Positions 1 to 19,101 of a stretch of 23,018 nucleotides of DNA are shown one piece after another. A model generated the notes under the pieces. It worked only from the letters and a program-made list of their open reading frames with translations, made no database searches and was not told the DNA's origin. The DNA lies in IMG/VR virus record IMGVR_UViG_3300017958_000076, positions 1 through 23,018 of that record; one strand, 5' to 3'. Positions within the stretch are counted from its first letter, which is position 1, and every line of letters starts with the position of its first letter. The translations under genes and the position numbers were made by a program. The DNA is from a virus.

Positions 1-3000
1 GAGCTCGTCCAGCTTTGCCTGAACGAGGTTCTGCTTCAGGTTCTTCTTGAGGCGAGAAAAGTACCGAGTCAGCTTGCCTGGGCGACCACCCTCGGTGCCA
101 AAGATGTGCCGCTTGTCCCAGCCAATAGAGGTCAGCCGGCGGAAGATGTACTCCTCTGCGGTAGGCTTGGCCCATTCAGGCAGACGCTTGAGCTTATCGT
201 AGGCTCCGTAGTCACCATCGTATCCAAGAGCACCGACGGATCCCCCGATGGACCGCCCGGCATAACCGATGGTCTGAGCGATGCTAGTACCAAAAGCCAG
301 GGAGATGACCTCCTCCGGCAGCACGTCGTCGCCTTCCTTCATCTTCCACAGAACATCGACAACGGGTCCGCCCGTAAGGCCGACCAACTCCATCAGGGGC
401 CTCATGACACCACCTTCGCCAGTAGCCTGGATGATCCGGTCTCGGTCGTCGTCGCTGAACTTGCCGAGGACATTTCCGATGATGTTAACTAGGTTCTCAG
501 TTGGGGCCATTGCATCCATGGATGAGATGTCACGGAATCCCATAACGTAAGGGTCGCCGACGTCCAAGAACAGCTTCTGACGCACCTCGGTGGGAGCGTA
601 GGCAAGGGCCTTCTCCAGCGCCTCCGGGTGCTTTTCCGCCTCAGCCTTAATGGCCGACACAGTGACAGCCTTCCGGGCAGCAGTGTAGAACTCCTTCTTA
701 ATGAGCTTAGCAGCCAACGCAGGGGAGCTAGTACTGATCCCGTTCGAGCTTCCAATCACATGCTTGGCGAGACCTTCGCCGCCGATGCCGACAGCCTTCC
801 AGTACCACGTCAGGTACGGGTTAAGAATAGACGTTGCTCCGCCAGCACGATCCATGAACCGAAGGACGCCAGGACGCTGCGAGTAATCGAAGAACAAAGC
901 GTTCGCTTTCATCCGAGCGTTGGCGGCAGCCACCTCTTTGAACCCGCGCCTCTTCGACCCCTTCACAACAGGCACACCGTCTACGATCGTAACCGTCGTT
1001 CTGGTGGTTGGGCTGGTGGGGATGGTGATCGTGTCACCTTCCCCAAGTTCGTCGATGGCATCGTATAGGAAGCGCATAGACCGGATCGCCTCATCGAACT
1101 TGAACGCGCTATCTCCGAGTCGGTACGCAGCGCCAGCATGATCCTGCAGTGCTTTAGCTGCCCTGGCACCCCCTGAAGCAGCACGGTTGATGGCTGAGAC
1201 CTGCGACGGCGACGCTCCGCGACTATCTGCGATGGACGACAGGGCGCTGATCTCGGCGGCGATAAGATCACCCTCGACGAACCCCATCTTGGTCACAGCG
1301 TCCATGATCTCGGCATCGAGCTTGCTTACTGAACTCTTGTCTTTACGCCACTTGCGAAGTGTGTGGAGGTTGTTCGACATGCGCGCCACAACGGAGACAG
1401 GGCTCACACCTCCGGACATAGCCTGAAGACCCACGTTACTCAGGGCGTTGTTTACATGGGAGGCTACGTTCATCGTGGTGAACCCAGCCTTCACCCATGA
1501 TGAGATGGACTTAGCCAGTCGGTTGATGTTCAAGTTGTTTACCGAGTCACCAAGCCACGAGTAGGTGTTCCGTAGGGGAGCCCTGACCGAACGGCCGTCG
1601 GTCTGTGTAGCTAGGTTGATGTTGAAGCTATCCGACACACCATCCTCGAGCATCCGCTTGTATGCAGCCTCATCTAGGACACCGGCGTCCAGAGCATTCT
1701 CCATCTGCTGCCGGAACTTGTTCCCGCCAAGGCCGTCAGCCGTAAGGTACCGTGAGATATCGGACCCCATGTTGGCCAGGTCAACGGACACCTCATTGGC
1801 CGGATCGACAAGCTGGCGCTGGATGTCGTTGATTCGAGCCCTGGCCCTGGCGACCGTATCCGCATCCAGTGACTGCCCCAGACGCTGCTCGAAGAATGCG
1901 TTGATGGACTCAGGGTTCATCACCATCTGCTGCAGGCGGTTGGCGACGATGCCGAACTGCAGCCCACGGGGGCTCACCATCGGGACAGCGTCCCCTCGGA
2001 GCATCGTGCTCTCAAGGAGCTTGTTCGTGTAGATGTCGGCAGCCGTGTAGATATCATTGGCGTCGAGGGCCTTGCCCATCGCCGTCTTTGCCTCTGCATC
2101 CCCTGCAAAGATCCTGTCTGCTTCGATAGCCATACCACGAGCAGCGGCCTGCGAACGAACGACAGCCTTGTTCTCCTCGATGAGGGATGAGGCCACACCG
2201 CCAAGGACAGAACGACGCTCAGCTTCTTTCATGCCTACCCATGCATCGGTAGCAAGATCGCGAATATTGACGACGTCACCAGTGCTGAGCTTGATGTACG
2301 GGTTCATGCTGTGACGGCCGAAGATCGGCCCTTCCGCAACAGTCTTTGCCATACGCTCGATGGCACGAAGCCCGTCTCCGCTGATGTCTGGGTCCATTTC
2401 CCGTAGGCGGTCGATGATACGCTTCATGACCCTGTGGTCCTTAGCGTACTGAGCACTACGACCTGACAGCAGGTCCTCGATCAGCATGACCGTGTTCCCA
2501 GCCATGTCAGGCGAGGCGTTCTCACGGAGGTGTTGGTCTAGGTCATCCAGAGCAGCAACAGCCTTATCATCAAGACGGAACCTGGCCTTGCTACGCCTGC
2601 GCTCGCGGTACGAGGGGGGGAGGATGTCTTTCGACGCATGAACCACCGAGCCATCGTAGTCGAAGTAGGAGAATGTGGACGGCATCTCAACGATGTCCGC
2701 CAGACCGCTGGAGCGTGAGATCGCCTCCATGTTCTCCGGGGTGAGATCAACACCGTTCTTGAGGGCATCAACCACCGAAGACGTCACGTTATCCATGGCT
2801 GCCGATGCTGCCGCCCCGTGCTGCATCATGCTTCGCACAGCGACCTCGTCCGACACCCTTGCCTGAGATGAGGTGTGGCGAAGGACGCGGCCTACACCGC
2901 CGACAACACGAGCCGACGCTCCACCTTTGCTGGCCAGGTGCCCAGCCAAAGCCTTCCCGCCTAGCATGGTCATGGCTCCCCATTCAGGGACACCAACAAG

Positions 3001-3756
3001 AGCTCCTGCTGCTGCGCCTTGGCCGGCATACGTCATCGCCTCGCCGATGGTCATACCCTCATCGCCGATGGCTTTAGTGTAGATCGTGCCAGGGACCCTA
3101 TCGAGACCAACCTCTTTCGGCTTCCTCGACATGACACCTGGGATCTCGGTGTCCATCACAGCGCGCACTTTGGATGCCAAGGGCTCGGTGGCCTCAGCGA
3201 TCGCATCGATCTTGCGGGCCTTGGCCCCAGTCCTTCGAACACCCTTAGCCGCAGCGTTCAGCATCATGAGCGTGCTGACAGGGAATGCATGCATGGCCTT
3301 GACTGGGTTTTCGGCAGTCCACCGGAGGCCCATGATGGCGTCCTCGCCCATGACATTAGCGGTCTCGTACCCAGCCGAAAGCGGATCTTCGTCAGCAGCG
3401 GCCTGCCACAGCGAGTTCAGCATGATGATCGGGGAACTGAAGACATCCTGAGCGTCTGCGATGGTGTTCTTGTACGTCGATGTCCCAGCCCGCTCGGCAT
3501 ACATCTCCTCAAAGCGACGCATGCTGTCGGCATAGGCCTCACCGCCGAAGGTCTCACCGCCAACAGCGCCGATAGCCCCCTCAACCAAACCAGTGATACC
3601 GCCGGCAACAGCACCAGCAGCAGCAGCTGGAAGGCCTGCCGCCGTGCTAAGCACATCACCCGTACCCTCGATAACCTCATCAAGAGCAGTGTCGGGATTA
3701 TCAGCACCAAAGGTGCCGATATCGATCAGGCCTTCAGTTTCCTTTGGTTCGGGCAT
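1..3756 (-). CDS. Very large internal virion / DNA ejection-type protein, C-terminus cut off by the window edge
   Basis: The minus frame starting at the ATG at 3756 is open to base 1 (1252 codons), so the gene continues beyond the window. Its ATG shares one base with the upstream stop (TAATG), implying coupled translation. Two Gly/Ala-rich hydrophobic stretches lie near residues 36-70 and 235-290, then a long helical, charged middle. Around residues 758-782 is a segment with FTTMNVASHVNNALSNV, and around 952-990 one with LFFDYSQRPGVLRFMD followed by NPYLTWYW. I recall this pair (an N-x-x-x-H-x-x-N-x-x-SN type motif and an F-x-DYS type motif followed by an aromatic segment) from very large phage and plasmid-borne proteins. 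Position at the end of the tail module, after two smaller helical proteins, fits the largest member of an ejection set (T7 gp16-like by place, not by visible homology). No lytic transglycosylase motif was recognised. The reading frame is certain; the role is inferred. Confidence 0.8.
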   Translation of the reverse strand, partial: MPEPKETEGLIDIGTFGADNPDTALDEVIEGTGDVLSTAAGLPAAAAGAVAGGITGLVEGAIGAVGGETFGGEAYADSMRRFEEMYAERAGTSTYKNTIADAQDVFSSPIIMLNSLWQAAADEDPLSAGYETANVMGEDAIMGLRWTAENPVKAMHAFPVSTLMMLNAAAKGVRRTGAKARKIDAIAEATEPLASKVRAVMDTEIPGVMSRKPKEVGLDRVPGTIYTKAIGDEGMTIGEAMTYAGQGAAAGALVGVPEWGAMTMLGGKALAGHLASKGGASARVVGGVGRVLRHTSSQARVSDEVAVRSMMQHGAAASAAMDNVTSSVVDALKNGVDLTPENMEAISRSSGLADIVEMPSTFSYFDYDGSVVHASKDILPPSYRERRRSKARFRLDDKAVAALDDLDQHLRENASPDMAGNTVMLIEDLLSGRSAQYAKDHRVMKRIIDRLREMDPDISGDGLRAIERMAKTVAEGPIFGRHSMNPYIKLSTGDVVNIRDLATDAWVGMKEAERRSVLGGVASSLIEENKAVVRSQAAARGMAIEADRIFAGDAEAKTAMGKALDANDIYTAADIYTNKLLESTMLRGDAVPMVSPRGLQFGIVANRLQQMVMNPESINAFFEQRLGQSLDADTVARARARINDIQRQLVDPANEVSVDLANMGSDISRYLTADGLGGNKFRQQMENALDAGVLDEAAYKRMLEDGVSDSFNINLATQTDGRSVRAPLRNTYSWLGDSVNNLNINRLAKSISSWVKAGFTTMNVASHVNNALSNVGLQAMSGGVSPVSVVARMSNNLHTLRKWRKDKSSVSKLDAEIMDAVTKMGFVEGDLIAAEISALSSIADSRGASPSQVSAINRAASGGARAAKALQDHAGAAYRLGDSAFKFDEAIRSMRFLYDAIDELGEGDTITIPTSPTTRTTVTIVDGVPVVKGSKRRGFKEVAAANARMKANALFFDYSQRPGVLRFMDRAGGATSILNPYLTWYWKAVGIGGEGLAKHVIGSSNGISTSSPALAAKLIKKEFYTAARKAVTVSAIKAEAEKHPEALEKALAYAPTEVRQKLFLDVGDPYVMGFRDISSMDAMAPTENLVNIIGNVLGKFSDDDRDRIIQATGEGGVMRPLMELVGLTGGPVVDVLWKMKEGDDVLPEEVISLAFGTSIAQTIGYAGRSIGGSVGALGYDGDYGAYDKLKRLPEWAKPTAEEYIFRRLTSIGWDKRHIFGTEGGRPGKLTRYFSRLKKNLKQNLVQAKLDEL

Positions 3757-5843
3757 TACTTGAGCACCAAGGCGGATAAAGCCGGATCATCACCGGGGTA
3801 AGCATTAGGAGGCGGAGAACCCGCCGGACCCGCTCCAGCGTCGGGACGTCCACCCTCCTCTAGTTTAAGCACGTCACGGAGGAACGACTCCGAGAAGGCA
3901 TCGTCATCAGTGCCTGAGATGTCAGGGACGGTTGCGTCCACGATGCCGCGCTGAGCAGCAAGTACGTTATCCCCGAGGATCTCCATCGCTCCTTTATCGT
4001 TCCCGGCAGCAATCCTAGCCTTGTACAGGGCGGTGTCGTTCTCTAGTTTCCGCTTCCGCTTGTCAGCAGCCTTCATGGCGTCAGCAAAGGCTTTGAACTT
4101 ACCGCCCTGCTCTTTGCCGATGGCGTCAAGTTCCGCTGCCTTATCTTTGCCGGCCAGGTCCTGCAGTCGGCCCATGATGTTATCACGGTCGCCCTTGTTG
4201 AGCTTGGCTAGTTCCCGCTCAGTGGCGACGTTAAGCTCCATGTCCACCCCCTTGATGAGGTGGTCGAAGGCCTCGGCTCCGTATTTCAGGCGCTGCTTGA
4301 CACTGAGTCCGCCACCGCCAGCAGACCTGGCTGCCCTGTTCGCTTTGCTGACCTCCCCCATGAGCTTCTTAACCTTAAGCGCCTCCGGGGATACCCCCTT
4401 ATCATCCAGCCATTTCTCGAACTTGATGGCTCGATCCAGGCGAAGCTGCTCAAGCTCGCTAAGCTCCTTGGTCGGCTCTGGCATAAGCCTATCAAGCTGC
4501 GCAGTGTTTCTGGTTAGGCGAGCCTGGGATGAATCGAAGAACAGGTCCGAGAACGTGCGCTTGTTGCGGGCAGTGTAACGGGCCAGGAGGGACTTGAGCT
4601 TGGCTTGCTCCTTTTCCGACTTAGCGTTCGGTGCATCCTCCATGATCTTGTCGATGGCATCACCAGGGGACATCCCGTAGTAGGGGTCCTCGCTTCGCTT
4701 TTGGGCCAAGAACTCATCGGCGGCCTCCTTGCCAACAAGATCCAACTCGGCGCCTCGGGCCTCCTCGATGTCGTATGACGGTCGGGAGATAGCCAACTGG
4801 TCCGGCGACACATCCTGGCGAGCCCGCTGCCTGATCTCGCGGTGCAGAAGCTCCTCGAACATGTTGGCTTCTGAGGTGTCAGCACCGGTCTTAGCCATCT
4901 CCATCATGATGGCAGGCTTCCCGGAGGCCGACTTCCACTTAAACATCACGTCCCGAAGCTGAGCCCTGGTGAGGTTCTTCAGGCGGTCTGATCCGGACTT
5001 AAGGTCCTCGTTGGTCAGGCCCTGGAACTTGAACGCCACGGGTTCAGCGATGGGGGGGTACGGAATATTCCCAGCAGGACGGTCCCCCCAGGCTCCAGCG
5101 GTACGCTTAGCCCGATTCGTGATATCATCCAGCAACTCAGCGTCCGCCTCAGGGCTGATGAGGCCTGCTGCCTGCTTAGCCTGACGCCCCAACTCGCTGT
5201 AACTAAGGTCGTGCTCCGGGAGCCAGTCGTTCGGCCCCTTGTGAGCTGGGAAGCCAGCGGCCTGCTCACCACGACGCTTCAGCCTGTCGGCCTCCGTAAT
5301 GGTCTCCATCTCACGGCGACGCTCCTGGCGGCTGGCTGCAGGCATGAGGGCCTGGGTGGCAAGTTGCCTTTCCCCTACCTGCATGAGAATGTCCGCAGCC
5401 CGACGGCGATCCTCAGGGTCATCGCGTCGGTTTAGGATGGCGTTAGCCTCGCCGACAGCCCGGCGCCTGGCCTCATTCTGGAGACTTTCGGTGAACTCCT
5501 CGCCCATGCCCTCTTGGGCCTGCTCGAGAGCCGGACGATCCATAGCACGCTGGGCCTCGACGGCCTGCTGCGCCTGCGCAACCTCACCTTGCATCCCAGC
5601 CTTGGCCCCAGCTCGGGCCTCAGCGGCAGCACGAAGGGCCTCCCCCTCAGCATCCACACCGCCTGGCCCAAGGCCTCGGGGCAGCTTCATCTTACCGAGA
5701 ATACCAGCAAGCCCAACCATGGTCTGCACCCCGCTGGGTGACAACCACTGGCTCTTTAGCCCGCCCCCGGACTGATCTGGGAACGTGCGCTGCTTCACGG
5801 CGCCTGGGGCGAACGCTCTGGAGTCGAAGATGATACGGCCCAT
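3756..5843 (-). CDS. Helical internal virion / ejection-type protein (695 aa)
   Basis: A 695-residue protein with a Gly/Pro-rich N-terminus (about 1-60) and then long Ala/Glu/Arg/Gln-rich stretches (about 65-190, again 470-640) that should form helices and coiled coils. No enzyme motif or signal peptide was seen. The start is well placed: AGGAG precedes the ATG by about 6 nt, within a short direct repeat (GCTAGGAGCTAGGAATG). The stop overlaps the next start as TAATG. By size, composition and place between a 198-aa and a >1250-aa helical protein it resembles the middle member of a podovirus ejection trio (T7 gp15 position). This is inference from context; a structural role elsewhere in the particle remains possible. 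Confidence 0.78.
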   Translation of the reverse strand: MGRIIFDSRAFAPGAVKQRTFPDQSGGGLKSQWLSPSGVQTMVGLAGILGKMKLPRGLGPGGVDAEGEALRAAAEARAGAKAGMQGEVAQAQQAVEAQRAMDRPALEQAQEGMGEEFTESLQNEARRRAVGEANAILNRRDDPEDRRRAADILMQVGERQLATQALMPAASRQERRREMETITEADRLKRRGEQAAGFPAHKGPNDWLPEHDLSYSELGRQAKQAAGLISPEADAELLDDITNRAKRTAGAWGDRPAGNIPYPPIAEPVAFKFQGLTNEDLKSGSDRLKNLTRAQLRDVMFKWKSASGKPAIMMEMAKTGADTSEANMFEELLHREIRQRARQDVSPDQLAISRPSYDIEEARGAELDLVGKEAADEFLAQKRSEDPYYGMSPGDAIDKIMEDAPNAKSEKEQAKLKSLLARYTARNKRTFSDLFFDSSQARLTRNTAQLDRLMPEPTKELSELEQLRLDRAIKFEKWLDDKGVSPEALKVKKLMGEVSKANRAARSAGGGGLSVKQRLKYGAEAFDHLIKGVDMELNVATERELAKLNKGDRDNIMGRLQDLAGKDKAAELDAIGKEQGGKFKAFADAMKAADKRKRKLENDTALYKARIAAGNDKGAMEILGDNVLAAQRGIVDATVPDISGTDDDAFSESFLRDVLKLEEGGRPDAGAGPAGSPPPNAYPGDDPALSALVLK

Positions 5844-5852
5844 TCCTAGCTC

Positions 5853-6449
5853 CTAGCTCGTCAGCGTCTTCTTGCGGATGATCTCCTCGCCCTGGTCAAT
5901 AGCCGCACGGTACGCTGGCGACCCCTCGGGGATACCGTTATCGAACAGGTATTGCTTGATGGCAGCACGGAAATCACCCTTGTTCAGGAACCCCCACGAC
6001 GTGTGCTCGTCAGCCAGCGAGTTTACCTCAGACCTGGCAGCCGTAGCATCCGCAGTCATCTGTTCACTGGTCTTCATGGTCTCGCGCTCGAACTGGATGC
6101 GGTCCATGGCTGCCTGGTCAGCGCGAGCGTCAAGCGCAGAGCGGGCCTCAGCGGCCTGGCGGGACAGGTCAGCCTGGGTGCCAGACAGAGCTGCTAGTGC
6201 TCCACCACCCATGGCGCGACCGGCGCGACGGCCGACAGCAGCGGAGAACGCTCGGCCCTGCTCGGCACGCAGGCGACCCTCCAGGGTCTGAGCCTCACCG
6301 GCGATCCGCTCTTCCGCAGACCGGAGTCGTCCTAGGGCGGCCTCACGAAGGCGAGCCTCCTCAGCCTGCGCCGCTTCGATATCGGTGCGCCGGGTAGGTC
6401 CCTTCCGCCTACGTCGCTCGACAGGTGACCCGAAGGTTTTTTCGCTCAT
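5853..6449 (-). CDS. Ala/Arg/Glu-rich coiled-coil virion protein (198 aa), probable small ejection protein
   Basis: The N-terminus is very basic (residues 8-22 include RRRRKG and RR). A helical Ala/Glu/Arg-rich stretch follows (about 25-75), then a Gly/Ala patch around GRRAGRAMGGGALAALSG (about 73-90), then another helix to about 150. The C-terminus is more globular (from about 150, with GFLNKGDFRAAIKQYL). The ATG at 6449 has a strong GGGGGAG Shine-Dalgarno a few bases upstream. Size, composition and position before two larger helical proteins resemble the smallest internal virion protein of T7-type phages (gp14 position). No sequence signature confirms this. Confidence 0.75.
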   Translation of the reverse strand: MSEKTFGSPVERRRRKGPTRRTDIEAAQAEEARLREAALGRLRSAEERIAGEAQTLEGRLRAEQGRAFSAAVGRRAGRAMGGGALAALSGTQADLSRQAAEARSALDARADQAAMDRIQFERETMKTSEQMTADATAARSEVNSLADEHTSWGFLNKGDFRAAIKQYLFDNGIPEGSPAYRAAIDQGEEIIRKKTLTS

Positions 6450-8910: not shown

Positions 8911-9522
8911 CTACGACGGAACGTACTGTGCGTAAGACATGTTCACAAACGGAGTTGTCGTCACGTCACTTGCGTTAACGCAGCCAGCAACAGCAACACG
9001 CCCAGGGCCAGGAGGAACTGCAGCATTGTCATTCCTGACGAGGGACCCGACACCGGACTGTACTCCATGGAACATGCAACCTTCGATCATAGCAAAGCCA
9101 CCATCCTCAATAAGGATGTAGGTCGATAAAGCCGACTGCTCGTTGTCGTCCTTGCTGATGTGGCAACCCCTTGCGATCAGGTAACCACCGCTCTTCACGA
9201 CGACTGCCGGGCTGTCGCCTTCGCACTTTAGGTTAGCCCCGTTCAAAACAAGTTTTCCTGTGACTTCAACTTGCTTCGTCACTGTGGATCCTGGGGAGAA
9301 AACAACAAACGACCTGTCTGCTGATGCTTTCATGCCGCCGTACTCACCCATCAGAACGAATGCCCCTGCATCGATCTTCTCATCCTGTTTAATCTGAGAC
9401 CCAGGCATCACCACGCTGCGCCCAAGACGCCGGATGGCGCCGAGGTACACCTCCATGGAGGTCTTATTCCTGACCTCCTCCCTGGTCTCAGAGCGATCCC
9501 ATACAGCACGCAGCAGGCTCAC
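8911..9522 (-). CDS. Beta-helix-like virion protein (203 aa)
   Basis: The start is a GTG at 9522 that overlaps the upstream stop as GTGA. Residues 1-35 are charged and probably helical. From about 85 to 155 there is a ladder of short strands of roughly 20-25 residues each, with hydrophobic/Gly patterns such as VTGKLVLNGANLKC, AVVVKSGGYLIARGCHI and YILIEDGGFAMIEGCMFHGV. This is the look of a right-handed parallel beta-helix, as in tailspikes and pectin-lyase-like folds. It is far shorter than a typical tailspike and shows no catalytic carboxylate cluster. It may be an appendage or a trimmed receptor-binding domain attached to the nozzle encoded just upstream. Confidence 0.7.
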   Translation of the reverse strand: MSLLRAVWDRSETREEVRNKTSMEVYLGAIRRLGRSVVMPGSQIKQDEKIDAGAFVLMGEYGGMKASADRSFVVFSPGSTVTKQVEVTGKLVLNGANLKCEGDSPAVVVKSGGYLIARGCHISKDDNEQSALSTYILIEDGGFAMIEGCMFHGVQSGVGSLVRNDNAAVPPGPGRVAVAGCVNASDVTTTPFVNMSYAQYVPS

Positions 9523-12047
9523 CGTCCGGTCCTCCGTCGGCCACCCTGGTTGCCCCTGAGGAGCAGCTTGGCGCTGGAAATCACCATGCGCTCGGCCCGG
9601 TTACGCATGAACCCAAATAGCATGTAGGTAACATGCTCCCCTCGCGTGCTGTCAGACGTTGAGATCGTGTCGTACTCCTCATCATCGATGAGGTACTCAC
9701 CGAACTTGGCCGCGTTGTTGAACGTGCGCTTCGACAGGACGCCAGCGGAGCTCTTGAATCGAGACCGCACCGTCAGCTTGTCTGCTACCTTGTCGATGGC
9801 GTCGTTATCGTAGTCAACAACCTGAGATGACCACCCCTTCCAATCGCCTGCGCTCAAGGTGTTGTACACACCCCAGATCCAGTTCGGCGCCAACTTGTTG
9901 GCGGCCGACCCGTGGCTAAGCATCCGGGTAAACACGCCGCGCGCCCTGGTTTGACCGACGCCATCCTCGCCGACCTGTGCCGACTTGTATGCCCAATCGA
10001 CAGCCTGAGCCTTGACGTTTTCGTCGTCGCCTGGTCCGATGTGGCCGTGCCAGTAGTACACCTCAGCATCTAACCCATTAATTTTAGCGTCAATAAAGCT
10101 CGTAATCATGCCGATGCTGGTGTGGTGGGAATGGTTCTCGATCCAGCGAATGACGAAATAAGGGCTGCGGCCTCCAATGGGGGCATTGAGGGCAACACCG
10201 GCATAGGAGATAGTAGCAGTCCCCGCAGCGATTGTGGCTCCGTACCCAGCCGAGCTTGCCTGCCTTTCCGGGGGCAAGCACATATCGATGTTACCGCCGG
10301 TGTTTCGGATGTCCCAGTGGGTGTTGATGTTGAACACAAGGTCAACCGACGTGATGACAGCGTCAGGGGCCACCTCAACCAGCATGAAGTACTCACCGGT
10401 AATCGGGTCAAGCTCTGGCTTGTGCATGTATATGTACCGGTCACCGACGGCTGACCGCACCTTGTAGGAGCTAGTCACGATGCGCTGATCCTCACCATCG
10501 TCAGATCCGGTGGACCGGTCTAACGCACCGCCTCGGCCTAGCTCCGTGATGTAGTAGCTAAGCGATTTGGAGGAGTTTCCCGTGTCAGCGTCGTTGAACT
10601 GCTCCTCGTCGATGCTGCCAACGCAGAAGATGTCGCCACGCCCGTTGGTTAGGCACACCGGGCTCTTGATGTTCGACACGTCTCGAACGATCGGTATGCC
10701 GACCTCCTGAGCGGCGCATGACGACGTAATCCACATGGACCACTGCCCCTGGGTTAAGCACCAGACGCAGCCGGACTCCGGAAAACTTGCCAGGAGGGCT
10801 CCTGACTGACTGTCATACATGATCGAGACGGGGTCACCCGCATCATACCGGTAGACAGTCTTTGGCATGTCTTCGGTCAGGGGATCTGCCACGCCACTAG
10901 CTGTGAGGTAGTGAGAAAGAGGTGTCGTCACGCTGTCAGTGAAGAAACCTCGTATCGACGAGCTGACCTCATTGACCGACATGCCGTTGGTCGTTGTGTG
11001 TATACCGTCGCTGGCGCACCAGAACACCGATGCCCCAACGGACACCACAGACTCCCGAGATGAGCACCCAGTGCTCGAACTGGCCGTGATGAACCTACCG
11101 TCGGATGCCAGCTCTCCAACCGAGGGCTGGTACAAGAACGTCTTTGACTCCGTGAACACCAGCAGGTTGTCGTTGATCTCCTCGATGGCGACGATGGGAT
11201 CCGTGGTGGGAGCAACAACGAAGTTTCTCGAGGCGTAGGCATTGGGCATTCCGGGGTCCGAGAAGTAAAGCTCGCCCTCCGAAGCTAGCACCATCCTGTT
11301 CTGCAGCGTGGCCATATCAACGACAGCCGGGATCTCCGATGCGTTGCGGTAGTTGTAGCTTTCCGGAGCAATACCGTTAGCGGGGGTCAGCGGGATGATG
11401 AGCGAAGACTCGCTCATGGGCTGATACCAGTTGGGCCGGTTGGCAACATCCAGAGCGGCAGACACGTTCGTCTCACGGAAGTCTGCCGGCAAGTAGACAA
11501 GGAGCCCAGTAGCCTTACTGTTGATGTACACAGCCCCGTCGTGAACATGGAATGAGAAGTCCTCGGACGTAGCGCCAATGAACTTTTGCCTATCGACACT
11601 AGCGTTGGTCTCGTAGCACCCTTTGCGGACGGGCATGCTAACACCGTCAAGCTGCGAGGTGTGCGTGTGGAGGATCTCCTCACGCCGCTTACGGCTATCA
11701 ACATCGAAGATAGAAACAGCCAGGTACCGTCCCCATACGCTACCCTGGGCGCCACCCTGGTTGCCGGTCTGAACCCGAGCCAGGAGAACAGACAGGATCT
11801 GCGTACTGCCCCAGTCGGTAACGAAGCACACCGATCCTAGATGCTTCTCGTAACCCCAGTTCACCGGGGACGTCATCTGGGCTGACATAGTCGTGTCGAA
11901 TGCGCACACCTGGCCGAAGCCAGGTCGTACCTCCCAGTCTCGGCGACCGTCCGGCATCCACATGTTCTGGACCCACGGCCCGCGAGCCGCAGAGGTCTCA
12001 TCGATGCCGCCACTAAGAAGCTCTACCTCGATCCCCCCGACAGCCAT
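9519..12047 (-). CDS. Large tail nozzle / tail hub-like protein (842 aa)
   Basis: An 842-residue, beta-rich protein directly after the head-tail adaptor, whose stop it overlaps (TGATG). The N-terminus (MAVGGIEVELLSGGIDETSA, then NMWMPDGRRDWEVRPGFG) resembles the start of podovirus tail nozzle or stabilisation proteins, which often open with a Gly-rich strand and an N-x-x-x-P-D/G-R...RPGF pattern. Residues about 240-375 carry repeated blade-like units, such as ATLQNRMVLASEGELYFSDP and NDNLLVFTESKTFLYQ, consistent with a beta-propeller as in T7 gp12 or P22 gp10-type proteins. The C-terminal half (about 500-842) is less familiar and makes the protein larger than P22 gp10 (about 470 aa). Assignment rests on gene order, N-terminus and propeller-like repeats. 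Confidence 0.8.
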   Translation of the reverse strand: MAVGGIEVELLSGGIDETSAARGPWVQNMWMPDGRRDWEVRPGFGQVCAFDTTMSAQMTSPVNWGYEKHLGSVCFVTDWGSTQILSVLLARVQTGNQGGAQGSVWGRYLAVSIFDVDSRKRREEILHTHTSQLDGVSMPVRKGCYETNASVDRQKFIGATSEDFSFHVHDGAVYINSKATGLLVYLPADFRETNVSAALDVANRPNWYQPMSESSLIIPLTPANGIAPESYNYRNASEIPAVVDMATLQNRMVLASEGELYFSDPGMPNAYASRNFVVAPTTDPIVAIEEINDNLLVFTESKTFLYQPSVGELASDGRFITASSSTGCSSRESVVSVGASVFWCASDGIHTTTNGMSVNEVSSSIRGFFTDSVTTPLSHYLTASGVADPLTEDMPKTVYRYDAGDPVSIMYDSQSGALLASFPESGCVWCLTQGQWSMWITSSCAAQEVGIPIVRDVSNIKSPVCLTNGRGDIFCVGSIDEEQFNDADTGNSSKSLSYYITELGRGGALDRSTGSDDGEDQRIVTSSYKVRSAVGDRYIYMHKPELDPITGEYFMLVEVAPDAVITSVDLVFNINTHWDIRNTGGNIDMCLPPERQASSAGYGATIAAGTATISYAGVALNAPIGGRSPYFVIRWIENHSHHTSIGMITSFIDAKINGLDAEVYYWHGHIGPGDDENVKAQAVDWAYKSAQVGEDGVGQTRARGVFTRMLSHGSAANKLAPNWIWGVYNTLSAGDWKGWSSQVVDYDNDAIDKVADKLTVRSRFKSSAGVLSKRTFNNAAKFGEYLIDDEEYDTISTSDSTRGEHVTYMLFGFMRNRAERMVISSAKLLLRGNQGGRRRTGR

Positions 12048-12721
12048 CAGTACCCCGTTGTCAGGTTGTAGCCAGGGGCAGGAGCAATGTAGTGGGAACC
12101 ATCAGTGGCCCGACCGACGGCGAGATACGACTCGAGCAGACGCTCCTTCTCCTGCATCAGGGAGAGGAGGGCATTGTTCGGGGCGCCATCTCGGACCATG
12201 TAGTAACGGGCCGCATAGAGGGCGATCAGCGCATGGTGTGAGTCGAACGTGTCGATGAACGTAAGGTCGCCACTTGTCCATGCTCCGGGCGAAATATGAG
12301 TCTCTGGGACGTACTCGATCCGGATAGTTCGCGATGTGTTTTCCGAGAACACAAGGCGTGTGCCGACAAGGCAGTAATCAACTTCAAGGTTATCAACCTG
12401 GGTCGGGTTCTGCCCTGGGGTCATGTACCATGCTAGGTTCCCGCTGCCGTCATCGGCGCCAATGCGAATGATGCGCTGGCACGGGTGAGTAGCCACCCCG
12501 AGAGCGTCCCGGAAAAGGACCCCAGCAAGCTCGTGCTCACGGCCAGAAACACTAACAGACAGGACGGTGTTGTATGCATCCGGCATCGTATCCGATACCA
12601 CCTGGCGGAACTCACGGTAACCCATGTCGCACATGGACTGGGCTTGAGACTCGCTCAGGAAGGTATCATCGGGCTCGTCGATCATCGACCGGAAGAGATC
12701 GTAGACTTCGCCGGTGTTCAT
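12047..12721 (-). CDS. Head-tail adaptor / connector protein (224 aa)
   Basis: A 224-residue protein that starts inside the portal stop (ATGA overlap) and ends in the nozzle start (TGATG). The N-terminus (VYDLFRSMIDEPDDTFLSES, then MCDMGYREFRQVVSD) is a helical pattern typical of podovirus adaptor proteins, which attach under the portal. A beta-rich middle follows with EVDYCLVGTRLVFSENTSRTIRIEYV split across about 110-138. Then a C-terminal helical region (from about 155, ALIALYAARYYMVRDGAPNN) has the Y-A-A-R-Y-Y and E-K-E-R-L-L features common in such adaptors. Its place between portal and nozzle matches the T7 gp11 / P22 gp4 position. The family-level call is good; no closer relative is named. 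Confidence 0.8.
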   Translation of the reverse strand: MNTGEVYDLFRSMIDEPDDTFLSESQAQSMCDMGYREFRQVVSDTMPDAYNTVLSVSVSGREHELAGVLFRDALGVATHPCQRIIRIGADDGSGNLAWYMTPGQNPTQVDNLEVDYCLVGTRLVFSENTSRTIRIEYVPETHISPGAWTSGDLTFIDTFDSHHALIALYAARYYMVRDGAPNNALLSLMQEKERLLESYLAVGRATDGSHYIAPAPGYNLTTGY

Positions 12722-14619
12722 CCGCCACCTCCCATCGGGGTACGACGAAGGCCACGCTCTGGCACCTCATCGACCATCTGCTGAGCGATCTGCATGGTCC
12801 CCATGCGCCGGTATTCCTCTTCGCCCTGAATGGCCGACACAGGAGACTGGTACGAGGCCTCGATCTGCGCCTCGCCTTTATCCGACGACCCGACTCGTGG
12901 GAACACCGTGCGCTTGATGTTCTCTTCTGCCGCCTGAGGGTCAGGCATACCGAAGGTGATGATCGATGCGTAGATGTCCCGGATGTACGCCTGGCGTTCG
13001 TAGGGAAGCTCGTAGTACTCAGCGTTTCGCATGAACTGACCGAATACGTCTTGGAACGCTTTGAGGTCATCAGTCGGGAACACCTCGACCTGAGCCCCAG
13101 CAGCCGCTGCCATGAGAATATCGTTGGCATGGGCGATAGACTGCATACGCTCGGTGACGAAGGAGTTACCGGTGCTGAACTTGAGCTCCCGGAGGGCGGT
13201 CTCTTTGTCGATCAGGCCCATCTCGAGAAGGTCCATGATGCGCTGATCTCGGTCCTGCTTCTCGTTGCGGAACAAGGAACCTGCCTCGATGAATACCTCA
13301 GGATCATCAACAAGATCAGTCGCCTTCAGGTAGTTGAAGACGACTTTACCCAGACCGTCCATCATGCGCATCATCCGAGGCTCATTGTAGTACTTGCGCA
13401 TCAGGATGAGCACGGTCTTTCCGAGGTCCTCGGTAGCCCGCTCGATGTCGTTCTGGGTCGTCTGAAGCTGGGTCATGTCACGACCGGATAGCGCCTCGAC
13501 GGCCTTGCCAGAGGTGACACCGACAGCCCGCTTTCCAAGCGACGTGGCATGGATACCGCTAACGTCCATCATCTCCGATGCAAGCTGAGCAGCGTTCTGC
13601 AGCACAAAGCCAGGCAGCGAGGGGGGCGACACCGGGGTGGGAGCCCCACCTGCCGGGTTGTAGTACACCTTCTCACCCTTGCGAGACGTGATAGAGTTGG
13701 CGCTAACGCCAGCTGTCTTCGGGATCAACCACTTGGGGTTACCGATAAGCTCTGCGTTATCAATGATTTGGCTGCGGGTCTTGTTGTAGTTAACCTGCAG
13801 GTCTAGGAGGGGCTCGATGGCACCCATGCCAAACAGGCGCCCTGGGATCTTGGTGTATCGAACGAACTGCACCGGCATGACATCACCCTCCCATTTCGTC
13901 TCGAAGAGGTAGGTGCTGTCGAGCAGGATCTTGCGATCACCGTTGCGGAAGTAGACGTCGAAGATCTCGAGACGGTCTTTCAGTTGCCTGGTCTCGCTGG
14001 ACATGAACGGCAGACGCTTCTGGCGCATCGCTTCGTCCATCTCAGCGGCCTGCATAATCACCTTCTTGTGATTGGGGTAGGCCTCTGCCAGGTCTTCTCG
14101 GTTGACGATTTTCGCCACGCCAACCCAGTTGGACTCTTCGGGGTTCGTCACACCAGGCTCGAAGTAGAGCATGTACGGCGACACAGTCTCAGTGATGATA
14201 TTCTTGCCGGTGTACCGGGTCAGAAACCCAGCGTTGCCCGTGCTGAGCAACCAGCCAACCAACTCACTGTACCGCTTACTCATACGAGATGCCTGCCAGT
14301 AGTACTGAAGGGCAGCCTCGCTGCTCTGGGCCTTAATGATATCCTCTGCGCTGGGTGATGCCGGGATGACCGTGGTGCCTGGGTACGCCACCTCGAGACG
14401 GCTCTGCAGGTTTCGGTACATGTTCAGGATGAGGTTCACCGTCACAGATGAACCCCTCACCTTTCGGCGGATCACATCACCAGACTTCGCCTCGACCTCA
14501 ACGTGCTGGCGCCCCTGCAGGAACAGGAGGCACGTATCCCAGATACGCTGATACGACGTGCGGTCGGTGTTGAATGACTCGATCGCCTGCTTGAGCTTCT
14601 CAGCTTTCGGGCTCTTCAT
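12718..14619 (-). CDS. Portal protein (633 aa)
   Basis: The dodecameric DNA gate of the capsid by inference. The N-terminal region (about 1-140) runs through a helical segment, NLILNMYRNLQSRLEVAYPG and QYYWQASRMSKRYSELVGW, typical of podovirus-type portals where an early helix precedes a wing region. Mid-protein, PVQFVRYTKIPGRLFGMG and IEPLLDLQVNYNKTRSQIID (about 250-285) match the conserved portal stretch in which GxGxxxxLxxLQxxxNxxxS-like patterns occur. A helical crown/stem region follows (about 385-470). The C-terminus is Gly-rich. It lies after the capsid genes and immediately before the adaptor, whose start overlaps its stop. The ATG at 14619 has AAGG about 7 nt upstream. The length suits portals of this kind. 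Confidence 0.9.
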   Translation of the reverse strand: MKSPKAEKLKQAIESFNTDRTSYQRIWDTCLLFLQGRQHVEVEAKSGDVIRRKVRGSSVTVNLILNMYRNLQSRLEVAYPGTTVIPASPSAEDIIKAQSSEAALQYYWQASRMSKRYSELVGWLLSTGNAGFLTRYTGKNIITETVSPYMLYFEPGVTNPEESNWVGVAKIVNREDLAEAYPNHKKVIMQAAEMDEAMRQKRLPFMSSETRQLKDRLEIFDVYFRNGDRKILLDSTYLFETKWEGDVMPVQFVRYTKIPGRLFGMGAIEPLLDLQVNYNKTRSQIIDNAELIGNPKWLIPKTAGVSANSITSRKGEKVYYNPAGGAPTPVSPPSLPGFVLQNAAQLASEMMDVSGIHATSLGKRAVGVTSGKAVEALSGRDMTQLQTTQNDIERATEDLGKTVLILMRKYYNEPRMMRMMDGLGKVVFNYLKATDLVDDPEVFIEAGSLFRNEKQDRDQRIMDLLEMGLIDKETALRELKFSTGNSFVTERMQSIAHANDILMAAAAGAQVEVFPTDDLKAFQDVFGQFMRNAEYYELPYERQAYIRDIYASIITFGMPDPQAAEENIKRTVFPRVGSSDKGEAQIEASYQSPVSAIQGEEEYRRMGTMQIAQQMVDEVPERGLRRTPMGGGG

Positions 14620-15148: not shown

Positions 15149-15300
15149 CGCTCCTGCTCCTCGTACAAGTTTGACACCGAGAACTCGGCGTCAGCATCAT
15201 CCTCGATTTGCGGGACAAACGCCAGCCTGAACAGGTGGAGCCCCCAAAATAGGAGCCCCACCTGTCCAAGCTCGGCCAGTGCTGTGACTAGGTCAAGCAC
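15145..15300 (-). CDS. Small hydrophobic protein (51 aa, GTG start) between capsid and 107-aa gene
   Basis: The frame fills the otherwise empty space after the capsid gene exactly. Its GTG start shares a base with the capsid stop (TAGTG), and its TGA overlaps the following ATG (ATGA). The product has a hydrophobic segment at about residues 13-32 (QVGLLFWGLHLFRLAFV) and an acidic tail (about 33-51, with EDDADAEF and YEEQE). One transmembrane helix is likely. There is no clear Shine-Dalgarno, so translation would depend on coupling to the capsid gene. The 15231-15265 hairpin lies within it. It could be a minor virion or membrane protein; its function is unknown. Confidence 0.65.
   Translation of the reverse strand: MLDLVTALAELGQVGLLFWGLHLFRLAFVPQIEDDADAEFSVSNLYEEQER
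15231..15265 (-). promoter_or_regulatory. Stem-loop just downstream of the capsid gene
   Basis: An 8-bp perfect inverted repeat (ACAGGTGG / CCACCTGT) flanks 19 bases. In the minus-strand RNA a small internal loop and four further pairs (CUCC with GGGG, one G-U) would close a UAUUUU loop. It lies about 35 nt after the capsid stop. No U-run follows, so it is not a standard terminator; it may be an mRNA 3'-end stabiliser, a processing site, or just coding sequence of the 51-aa gene. Confidence 0.45.
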
Positions 15301-16646
15301 TAGACGCCAGCGTAGCTGATGCCGACGAGGATGCCGTTGCGGTTCGGACGCTCGCAGACCACGTTGTAGTAGTAGCGAACGAAGGCCTCGTAGGCGTCGC
15401 GGTTAGCGACACGACTGAGGACCGAGCCGTCCAGATCCGCCAGGCCAATCTCAGTGATCTGAGCGATGGACCACGACTTCAAGCTGAGGAAGATCAGCAG
15501 GCCCTTGCCGCAGTGGCGAGCCACCTTGAGCGGGATGCCATTGAAGCTGAGGGAACCCATGTTGAAGCCAGCATCGCCGCCATCAACGCTCTTGCTCAGG
15601 CTAGTAGCGTTGTCGGTGACGCTCGTGAACGACATCAGGGCGGTGTACTCCTGCCGGAAGATGTGGTTCGCGATCATGCAGTCAGGTGCGCTACCTCCAG
15701 CCTTCAGAGCGATGGAGTCCAGCATGGCCTGCATGCGCTTGGTCGCCAGGGCCGTGACGGCACCAGCACCAGGGTTGCTGGAAGCGATGGTGTTCTCGAC
15801 GCTCTCGATGGTGGACCGAAGAGGCTCAAGACTGGCGGTGTCGCGCAGGTTGCCGTGGAAACTCACGGTGCCGCCAGCTAGGTCGATGTAGCCACCACCC
15901 AGGTTGCCGTAGATACCCATGGCCTCGTCGGTGGTGACGTAGGCGGGGGTGGACAACGGGTCAGTTGCAACAACAACGGTAGCAGCAGCGCCCTTGGCCA
16001 GGCCGGTAAGGTCCACAGTGTTGGGAGCGGCAGCGGCCGTAGTGAAGTCAACAGCACCGGGGGTGACGCTCTGACGAACATGAAGGGCGCCAGCACCACC
16101 AGTAGTGATCTCCTCGTAGGTGTCAGTACGAACGAGGATACACGGCACCGGGGTGGCGGCAGCCAGGGGCAACCCTTCGAGGTTGCCGGACAGCGGCATG
16201 GTAGCGGCCGCAGCGGAGCGGTCGAACACGAATCCGACGTTGCCGCCGCCGATGAAGCAGGACGCGTCGCCCTGGTTCTTCACGCTCTCGATGGCGCCAT
16301 CAAGCTCGCTCTGCAGAGCGTTGACGAACGCGCCAGCGTTGGCCTTGGCTTGCTCGATGGTCGGGCCGGTGATGTCCATACGGCCGTAGAGGTACTTGGC
16401 CTGAATGGTCAGGTCAGCGTACTTCTGACGGTCGGCGGTCGGAAGATCGTTGTCCTCAGCACGGAAGCCGGCGGATTCGTTGCGGCCAATGCGCACAGGC
16501 ATGATAGCCTTGCGACCGGTCCAACTGACCTTCTTCTTGTTGAAGAGTTCAAAGACCAGCATCTCGTTGTTGAGCTGGTCGCGAATGGGACCCTGATAAA
16601 AATCCTTCAGGATCTTATCGAGGCTAGTGAGGGTAGAGACAGCCAT
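15300..16646 (-). CDS. Major capsid protein (448 aa)
   Basis: This is the main shell subunit by context and sequence style. It starts MAVSTLTSLDKILKDFYQGP, with an N-terminal arm, then VFELFNKKKVSWTGRKAIMP and AKYLYGRMDITGPTIEQAK (about 28-125), typical of HK97-fold capsid proteins in which a helix-rich N-arm and E-loop precede the P-domain. A Gly/Ala/Thr-rich beta insert spans about 150-260. Then come helical P-domain segments, with a C-terminal strand ending GILVGISYAGV. It directly follows the scaffold gene with an AAGGAAAT ribosome site 7 nt before the ATG. No capsid maturation protease gene is visible next to it. The stop overlaps the 51-aa gene. Confidence 0.9.
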   Translation of the reverse strand: MAVSTLTSLDKILKDFYQGPIRDQLNNEMLVFELFNKKKVSWTGRKAIMPVRIGRNESAGFRAEDNDLPTADRQKYADLTIQAKYLYGRMDITGPTIEQAKANAGAFVNALQSELDGAIESVKNQGDASCFIGGGNVGFVFDRSAAAATMPLSGNLEGLPLAAATPVPCILVRTDTYEEITTGGAGALHVRQSVTPGAVDFTTAAAAPNTVDLTGLAKGAAATVVVATDPLSTPAYVTTDEAMGIYGNLGGGYIDLAGGTVSFHGNLRDTASLEPLRSTIESVENTIASSNPGAGAVTALATKRMQAMLDSIALKAGGSAPDCMIANHIFRQEYTALMSFTSVTDNATSLSKSVDGGDAGFNMGSLSFNGIPLKVARHCGKGLLIFLSLKSWSIAQITEIGLADLDGSVLSRVANRDAYEAFVRYYYNVVCERPNRNGILVGISYAGV

Positions 16647-17505: not shown

Positions 17506-19101
17506 TCACCAGACCCCAATATCGTTCAACACCTCATGGACGGGATCTGGTGAGAAGTCCTCTGAGGTCGCTTCGGAGAAGAGTCGCCCAGTTGCTTGCT
17601 CCCACTTGAGCATCTCTTTGACGCCCGTGGGTCGCACTTTGGCGGCAACTTCTTCCACAAGATCATGTACTTGGTCTAGTCCCATAAGCGCAAGTGCTAC
17701 TGCCATGACCATATCATCATGCTTACCTGAGGGGGCTTCAACCTTACCTCTGGCGTTGAATGCTAGGCTATTCGCCTCGCTGATGAACGCACCGTCGATG
17801 ACTTCAACTCGGTTGCTGGTGATGAACTGGTAGAGCCTGCTCATCATCAGATTGCGGCTCTTCGAGTTGGTGTTGAAGCCGTAGCGTGGCGTCCACTGGT
17901 TCTTCGCTTTGTCCCAGTGCTGATCTCGGAACATGTGGGGGTAGGCCTTAGACATCATGTACTCGATGATCGACAGGCCGTAGCTGTTGCTTTCGATGAC
18001 AGCCAGGGCCTCGTACTTCATCGCCATGTCGTAGACTTCCTCTTTGTAGTCCGACGGCGGATCCTTGTCGTAGTACGACGCAACCATCTCGATCTTGTTG
18101 TCGTTCGTGACGTCGAGGACCATGAACGCTGAATAATCACCACCGGGACTGCCAGAAGCAGTATCAACACCAATCGTGTAGATTCGATACGGCTGAGGTT
18201 CTTTGTAAATCTTAATACCACGGGAATACCCTGTGACTGGCCACGGGTCGGGGAAGAACCGCTGTCCGGATGTGACGAAGGCGAGTTCCGCTGTCGCCGG
18301 GAACTCCTGATTGAAGATGAGCCAGTTGTTGGCACACTTGGTTCTCAACTGATTAACGAACCAGTTGGACTGCGTGCTGGTGAGCTTGTGCTTCCGGGTG
18401 TACTCCCGCTCCTTCTCCGTCAGGTCCTTGAACCTGCAGTGCGGGAGGTTGTAGCGTTCGTCGATCTTCCACCCGAGGAAGATCTTATCGAATCCGTTGT
18501 CTTCGCCCCAAAGCTCGTGGGCCTTGTTCAGGCCGTTGGCGGTGGATTCGAAGATGATCGTGGCGTTGGCTCCGCCGGTCTGGAAGAGGGCTGCGATGGC
18601 TGTGTCGATGTTCGACCAGAAGGCGTACTCGGACGCGTGGATGTACTGGTAGGTCTGACCACGGAAGCTCTCAGATCCGGCGCTACCGACAACGATCTTC
18701 GATCCGGTCTTGAACTCCAGCCTGTTGTCCCGGTTCCTCACTGCTGAGACCTTCATCTCTGCGGGGAGGTTGGAGTACATGAACTGGTACATGGTGAAGA
18801 GTTCTTTGGCCGCCGGGTCCGTATGGGCCACGACAGCGACTCTGGTGTTCTTATTAAACAACGCCTTCCACAGGTAGTAGGCGGCGATGACCGTGGATGA
18901 CCCGAGCTTACGGGCCTTCAGGACCATGGTGTGGTTGTTCCGCATGGTTCGCGAGATGATAAGCCGCTGCGCCTCATTGAGCTTAAGCGGCAAGACCGCC
19001 GAGTCCATCCCGACGATCTTGACGTAGTTCTCAGCGAAGTAGTGGAAGCTCTTGGCGCACTTCTTCAGTTCGCTAGCGATGTGGTCCCTGGTATTCAGCA
19101 C
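17506..19101 (-). CDS. Terminase large subunit (531 aa), ATPase-nuclease DNA packaging motor
   Basis: All signature elements are visible. The N-terminal ATPase has a Q-motif-like LNEAQRLIIS (41-50), a Walker A-type KARKLGSST (63-70), a Walker B-like HASEYAFW (155-162) with the catalytic Glu at 158, and a coupling motif FESTANG (184-190). The C-terminal RNase H-fold nuclease has IGVDTASG (310-317) with Asp313, AVIESNSYG (367-375) with Glu370, and KHDDMVMA (460-467) with Asp462/Asp463. The start is a GTG six bases after the H1-like gene's stop; no strong Shine-Dalgarno is present, so coupling is likely. Length is normal for this family. It is separated from the small subunit by about 2.9 kb, which is unusual. 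Confidence 0.97.
   Translation of the reverse strand: MLNTRDHIASELKKCAKSFHYFAENYVKIVGMDSAVLPLKLNEAQRLIISRTMRNNHTMVLKARKLGSSTVIAAYYLWKALFNKNTRVAVVAHTDPAAKELFTMYQFMYSNLPAEMKVSAVRNRDNRLEFKTGSKIVVGSAGSESFRGQTYQYIHASEYAFWSNIDTAIAALFQTGGANATIIFESTANGLNKAHELWGEDNGFDKIFLGWKIDERYNLPHCRFKDLTEKEREYTRKHKLTSTQSNWFVNQLRTKCANNWLIFNQEFPATAELAFVTSGQRFFPDPWPVTGYSRGIKIYKEPQPYRIYTIGVDTASGSPGGDYSAFMVLDVTNDNKIEMVASYYDKDPPSDYKEEVYDMAMKYEALAVIESNSYGLSIIEYMMSKAYPHMFRDQHWDKAKNQWTPRYGFNTNSKSRNLMMSRLYQFITSNRVEVIDGAFISEANSLAFNARGKVEAPSGKHDDMVMAVALALMGLDQVHDLVEEVAAKVRPTGVKEMLKWEQATGRLFSEATSEDFSPDPVHEVLNDIGVW

Follow-up and report, generated by a model that had tools for sequence, protein, structure and literature searches.

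In 14 podoviruses, the genes of the ejection proteins are described as following each other in a small, middle, large order (available part of PMC8954989). According to the same text, the outer membrane is opened by gp14-like proteins and the periplasm is crossed by a tunnel of gp15-like proteins, while gp16-like proteins enter the inner membrane and the cytoplasm. An equivalent three-protein conduit is reported for DEV and N4 (excerpt of PMC10925440), and N4 gp52, gp51 and gp50 likewise form a small-middle-giant series. The locus described here is part of IMGVR_UViG_3300017958_000076, a linear viral record of 23,018 bases that was analysed over its entire length (the window), and concerns the gene of a giant protein at its left end. 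Judging from the sequence, we consider it probable (about 0.82) that this giant is the largest protein of a three-protein ejection set, in the gp16 slot of a podovirus with a P22-type portal, and that its sequence is unrelated to that of T7 gp16.

An earlier note on this DNA described an uninterrupted frame of 1252 codons reaching base 1. This is confirmed: the frame lies on the minus strand, has its ATG at base 3756 and meets no stop down to base 1, and the longest open run in 300 base shuffles of the stretch is 360 codons (median 166). Coding-type evolution is seen between two relatives of the giant, P0003 and P0004, whose differences at codon positions 1, 2 and 3 are 0.25, 0.16 and 0.61. 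The record IMGVR_UViG_3300017969_000001 (35,612 bases) represents the same phage, with 99.94-99.98% identity over two long matches, and is probably a complete genome, as its two ends have about 120 bases in common. From this contig the complete giant (P0001) is read as 1309 amino acids (aa). The statement that the giant runs off the left edge of the window is thus correct as to truncation, but the overhang comprises just the final 57 codons and the protein is nearly whole. Sequence to the left of the window, proposed beforehand as a check, adds no domain with these residues. A catalytic domain in the missing C-terminus, which would have spoken for a non-virion enzyme, is not borne out, and the complete protein has zero Pfam matches at E up to 10. 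The genes of the set and the parts of the giant are the following:

1..3756, minus strand: gene of the giant (codes for residues 1-1252 of the 1309), proposed to be the largest ejection protein in the gp16 slot
790..1599, minus strand: region of remote similarity, residues 720-989; profile match to giants of actinophage-type podoviruses, in their C-terminal part
1435..1491, minus strand: motif 1, residues 756-774, K-A-G-x-T ... H-V-N-N ... S-N
796..894, minus strand: motif 2, residues 955-987, F-F-D-Y-S ... N-P-Y-L-T-W-Y-W-K
3583..3639, minus strand: lone hydrophobic Gly/Ala stretch, residues 40-58; mean hydrophobicity-type score 1.52
3756..5843, minus strand: putative gene of the middle ejection protein (695 aa, gp15 slot); TAATG holds both its stop and the start of the giant
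5853..6449, minus strand: putative small ejection gene, 198 aa, gp14/gp7 slot

The order, the sizes, the gene overlap and the absence of cysteine are observed directly. The three genes are adjacent in the late region and the largest comes last, as expected of an ejection set; they follow the genes of the capsid, portal and hub. The same small-middle-giant layout is found in four further contigs of the window group; in one of these, the giant is split. The closest counterpart in dimensions is the T7 set gp14/gp15/gp16, which agrees in order, adjacency and sizes (196/747/1318 versus 198/695/1309 aa) and contains one cysteine against none in the window set. However, there is no profile similarity to T7 for any of the three proteins, and an N-terminal lytic transglycosylase of the T7 gp16 type was not found in the window giant by Pfam, NCBIfam or PHROG. 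The P22 set gp7/gp20/gp16 shares the gene order and the lack of cysteine, and the window phage has a P22-type portal as well as a hub matching Hc3, but the P22 proteins are smaller (229/471/609 aa) and show no profile similarity either. P22 gp16 is likewise described as devoid of a lytic transglycosylase (available part of PMC8954989). The suggestion in the earlier note that position marks the giant as the largest ejection protein is therefore supported by order, sizes and cysteine-freeness, and its remark on the small resemblance to T7 gp16 holds for the other counterparts as well.

Besides order and size, the near-absence of cysteine was used as a criterion for ejection sets; it was devised here and is not an established definition. 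The 198-, 695- and 1309-aa proteins contain no cysteine in 2202 residues. The remaining late proteins of the phage have 39 cysteines in 5544 residues, a frequency at which 15.5 would be expected in the set (Poisson 2e-7). In the four distinct group phages with an intact giant, the sets are devoid of cysteine over 9139 residues. A comparable pattern is found in well-known phages. The ejection proteins of T7, P22, SP6, phiKMV, epsilon15, P-SSP7 and N4 have 7 cysteines in 17,623 aa, with 16 of the 22 proteins having none, versus 147 in 20,491 aa for 40 other structural proteins of these phages; both groups are a partial set picked from annotation by the analyst. Without epsilon15, 18 ejection proteins have 2 cysteines, and N4 gp50 has none in 3500 residues. 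Gp40, gp39 and gp37 of Edwardsiella phage KF-1 (215, 561 and 969 aa) lack cysteine as well.

The pattern extends to a remote family of podovirus giants, described below. In 45 distinct contigs of this family, cysteine is absent from 43 of the 45 giants, all 36 middle proteins and 32 of the 35 small proteins, and the sets contain 14 cysteines in 91,111 residues versus 408 in 54,573 for 128 other open reading frames (ORFs) of those contigs. These ORFs were chosen mechanically from start codons, giving 55 of 57 cysteine-free giants before and 43 of 45 after removal of near-duplicates; this count supersedes a stop-to-stop count (50 of 57). Middle ORFs were taken for 46 and small ORFs for 44 of the 57 contigs, the rest being left out for want of an abutting ORF. 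The sets of the phages DS1, Jasmine, Shocker and API480, all from Gram-positive hosts, follow the pattern, which suggests that its cause is unfolding during passage and not an oxidising periplasm. For the N4-like virion RNA polymerase, the scarcity of cysteine has been remarked upon with the same reasoning on tail passage (available part of PMC3915230). Beyond that text, a wider printed statement on ejection proteins was not found in the literature searched, which was available in part, and a term look-up for 'cysteine' gave no hit in the accessible text of PMC8954989, PMC12633501, PMC10386132, PMC10925440 and PMC11784390.

Packaging, exit order, ejection and a channel role are inferred from these observations, and the proposed mechanism is as follows. 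The giant would be packed in the head and would leave, together with its two partners and wholly or partly unfolded, via the portal and the short tail. As it has no cysteine, no disulfide would be able to lock it in passage. In the host envelope, it would refold and, jointly with its two smaller partners, build a transient channel for DNA entry. Position and size suggest that it fills the third, gp16-like role, lining the inner-membrane or cytoplasmic end of the channel as T7 gp16 does, presumably with no peptidoglycan hydrolase of its own, as none is detectable. The single hydrophobic stretch, residues 40-58 (mean 1.52, from hydropathy only), is possibly a membrane-active segment.

The two motifs of the giant had been said to recall a group of very large phage or plasmid proteins. 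In P0001, motif 1 is N763-x3-H767-x2-N770-x2-S773-N774, while motif 2 consists of F955-F956-D957-Y958-S959, followed by N979-P-Y-L-T-W-Y-W986. All these residues are identical in P0002 (1317 aa, 42% identical to the window giant). P0003 (1543 aa, 24% identical) keeps only N763, H767, N769, N770 and N774 as well as Y958, N979, P980, T983 and K987; P0004 (1569 aa) is 71% identical to P0003. A pattern search chose motif 1 and the N-P-[YF] portion of motif 2 unprompted, and both rank with the most conserved sites.

The portal of the window phage matches 19 phage records, Cellulosimicrobium phage DS1 being the best. Sets of 238-247, 417-441 and 1743-1803 aa, each followed by a lysin gene, occur in DS1 as well as in Arthrobacter phage Jasmine and Microbacterium phage Shocker; in the uncultured podovirus ctEqG8, the set measures 195, 394 and 1106 aa. 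Jasmine gp29 and the DS1 giant match phrog_36598, annotated as of unknown function. A scan of viral contigs with the actinophage C-terminal alignment A7 yields the remote family of 57 loci, and in 44 of the 57 contigs a middle and a small ORF abut upstream of the giant. The family profile is made of 53 C-terminal sequences, i.e., those of DS1, Jasmine, Shocker, ctEqG8 and 49 distinct viral contigs. Against four window-type giants, it gives one collinear hhalign alignment of 234 columns spanning both motifs, with a probability of 83.5% and P 8.3e-6. With cleaned columns the values are 84.7% and P 6.6e-6, and the score of 58.4 compares with a maximum of 24.1 in 200 column shuffles. In the controls, the reversed profile scores 20.8, and against the family profile the scores are 17.6 for the 695-aa family, 14.5 for the 198-aa family and 27.1 for KF-1 gp37. 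P0001 and P0002 as a pair find motif 1 at P 3.1e-4 and 9.2e-5, and with the four phage sequences only, the giants give P 0.0091 for motif 1 and 0.19 for motif 2. Homology of residues 720-989, about 270 residues, to the remote podovirus giants is therefore likely, not proven, because the profile link varies with the alignment used (P 8e-6 to 3.4e-4). The giants of DS1, Jasmine, Shocker and API480 resemble the window giant in the same three-gene set, the lysis genes that follow and the lack of cysteine, and probably also, as a family, in the profile similarity over both motifs; this similarity is confined to these residues, with none detected elsewhere.

Two members of the remote family deserve separate mention. 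Gp16 of Paenibacillus larvae phage API480, from a set of 309, 322 and 1631 aa, belongs to the family profile with 97.2%. By mass spectrometry, 18, 19 and 71 unique peptides are reported for gp14, gp15 and gp16, with 60.8% coverage of the latter (available part of PMC6937236). This result supports, without proving it, that such giants are present in the particle. The gp16 detected is listed there at 128 kDa and must therefore be shorter than in the present record, where it has 1631 aa. The second member is the giant of a Paenibacillus phage-like plasmid (hhalign 99.5%), where a set of 262, 490 and 1106 aa, with one cysteine in the small protein, precedes XhlA and GH25 genes. The suggested likeness to phage and plasmid giants has thus gained support, with one family member being plasmid-borne and the link itself likely. 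On the Paenibacillus cellulosilyticus 'plasmid' L108 (NZ_CP054610.1), a terminase gene accompanies XhlA and GH25 genes and an ejection-like set that includes a giant, so that this record is probably a phage-plasmid.

A different explanation is raised by the fold predicted for the remote family, namely that the giant is a polyvalent injected effector, carried in the head for host takeover or counter-defence and without a part in a DNA channel. The C-terminal 600 residues of one member (L046; 40 sequences) are predicted with a mean predicted local distance difference test (pLDDT) value of 83.2. Compared with BFVD, this model matches 39 entries at E<=1e-3, 13 of them under the name 'Large polyvalent protein associated domain-containing protein'; one 'domain 38' entry (LPD38) appears at E 2.2e-3 among the best 50 of 304. 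This likeness to polyvalent proteins with LPD38 (PF18857) concerns predicted models of the family and not the window protein, for which a model of residues 110-1309 of P0001 (6 sequences) has a mean pLDDT of 45.8 and was not used for a fold search. Against PDB, Foldseek returns nothing for the family model at E<=1e-3, and the best Z in VIA-align 2 is 4.0, with scattered matches; the lack of a solved relative does not show a new fold. In contrast to polyvalent proteins, the three giants scanned have neither a PF18857 match (Pfam, E up to 10) nor any enzymatic domain, let alone several in one chain. PF18857 is also silent in the five window-group records and in 31 others (30 of the wider family), which is weak evidence because the control genomes are silent too. 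Among the matches listed, the term 'large polyvalent protein' does not occur in literature on podovirus ejection. As the giant moreover follows a small and a middle gene in all five distinct group phages, an effector is unlikely, and membership of an ejection set remains the preferred reading.

Less probable again is a structural protein of the tail, tail needle or fibre that is not ejected. The giant is encoded in the late operon adjoining the tail genes, with a Laminin_G_3 lectin gene close downstream. However, it is the last of a small-middle-giant set, matches no fibre family and lacks cysteine, whereas there are 11 cysteines in the hub, 4 in the 203-aa protein and 3 in the 543-aa protein (but none in the 271-aa protein). 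Finally, that the giant itself acts as a peptidoglycan hydrolase in the virion, as the annotation of the T7, SP6 and phiKMV counterparts as 'internal virion protein with endolysin domain' might suggest, is very improbable, with no SLT, lysozyme or peptidase match in the giants (P0001-P0003 in Pfam; P0001 and P0002 in NCBIfam) and an M15_3 peptidase encoded by a separate gene with a GTGA overlap.

Several points weigh against assigning the giant to an ejection set and to the remote family. The virion content of this phage is deduced from its genes, and the giant has a weak predicted transmembrane content. It shows no profile similarity to its counterparts in T7, P22, SP6, phiKMV, epsilon15, P-SSP7 and N4 (hhalign against eight counterparts, each as a single sequence, P 0.11-0.54). 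Cysteine absence by itself is not diagnostic: 23 of the 128 control ORFs lack it, and so do the 442-aa, scaffold-slot, TerS-slot, 271-aa and three small proteins of the window. Epsilon15 breaks the rule, as its four ejection proteins contain 5 of the 7 cysteines counted; the assignment used for them (gp14-17) is the analyst's and differs from that of the review. As to the remote link, the first shuffle control, with uncleaned columns, gave 2 of 100 scores above 130 versus a real score of 59.3, presumably because gap-rich columns were shuffled too. When 40 of these contigs are aligned separately, motif 1 alone is recovered (P 3.4e-4), and the pair P0003/P0004 by itself reaches P 0.056-0.08 against the family profile. 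API480 gp16 and the Paenibacillus plasmid giant are tied to the window giant through the family profile only, the comparisons of single sequences giving P 0.13 and 0.61. Lastly, the mass spectrometry of API480 lists 47 proteins from unpurified particles, including non-virion proteins such as dUTPase (available part of PMC6937236).

If correct, the assignment provides a probable role for an orphan family not recognised by any of the libraries searched, and connects this family with a broad range of podovirus giants that lack annotation. Order, size and cysteine absence together would offer a simple way to spot ejection sets where sequence comparison fails, the cysteine pattern being the most transferable result. 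A broader proposal, which we put slightly below even odds when taken as a whole, is that ejection proteins in general exclude cysteine owing to threading through portal and tail, that the two-motif giants form a second large class in the gp16 slot with no sequence relation to T7 gp16 (in podoviruses of actinobacteria, of Paenibacillus and of the present group), and that LPD-type domains are often conduit-forming parts and not effectors.

Direct relatives of the giant are few. In Pfam, PHROGs, NCBIfam and PDB sequences, window-type giants have no significant match. No match was returned by tblastn of P0001 and P0003 against 50,697 phage records or of P0003 against 72,556 plasmid records, and two profile searches of genome contigs (alignments A1 and A7) gave no relative. 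Apart from records of the phage itself, six scans of viral contigs with the giant, its alignments, the motif piece and the hub returned four relatives and nothing else. A hidden Markov model of alignment A9 found nothing in the five window-group records, in a run with no positive control. In the fourth relative, the giant is spread over three overlapping frames:

L026, about 367-4883, minus strand: giant gene as if with two frameshifts, due either to an error in sequencing or to genuine decay

The middle protein of relative L004 (7874-9877) has an inserted peptidoglycan-binding domain, PF09374/PF01471 (PF09374 at E 3.2e-5, 24.5 bits with a cut-off of 24.6), which is not present in the 695-aa protein of the window. 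This insertion fits a role of the middle slot as periplasmic tunnel.

The late genes, all on the minus strand, are ordered as TerS-slot, terminase large subunit (TerL), capsid, portal, 224-aa protein, hub, three further genes and the 198-, 695- and 1309-aa set. The neighbouring features are the following:

17506..19101, minus strand: terminase large subunit, PF03237 E 1.6e-6, PF17289 E 1.2e-5
15300..16646, minus strand: major capsid protein, phrog_14242 E 5.7e-38
12718..14619, minus strand: portal of the P22 type, PF16510 E 1e-25
12047..12721, minus strand: 224-aa protein between portal and hub, in the adaptor slot from position alone; no family match
9519..12047, minus strand: 842-aa protein resembling a tail hub or nozzle, with PHROG matches to 'internal virion protein' (E 2.2e-15) and to 'head closure Hc3' (E 2.1e-4)
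L030 11693-12376 (minus strand), L004 14147-14902, L025 5258-5998 and L033 14607-15299: lectin gene of the Laminin_G_3 type, a short distance downstream of the giant in 4 of the 4 phages examined

The hub also matches phage KF-1 by tblastn (E 4e-4, coverage 16%), and the TerS-slot protein has a sub-threshold helix-turn-helix match. For the 198-aa protein, PHROG gives a 'tail assembly chaperone' match at E 0.02, which was judged to be due to chance. Downstream lies a 125-aa Peptidase_M15_3 gene whose start shares GTGA with the stop of the giant, and the Laminin_G_3 gene comes next; by eye, an M15-like ORF is kept at the same place in L004 and L033. The early region of the 35.6-kb contig encodes a DUF3799 PD-DEXK protein, RuvC, MazG, an IstB/DnaC-like ATPase and, by eye, an SSB-like protein. 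Adjoining TerL, at 19108-20436 on the minus strand of the window, lies the gene of a 442-aa protein with 20.5% lysine, 16.9% alanine, a net charge of +77 and no Pfam match; at a guess, it resembles a histone-H1-like DNA-binding protein.

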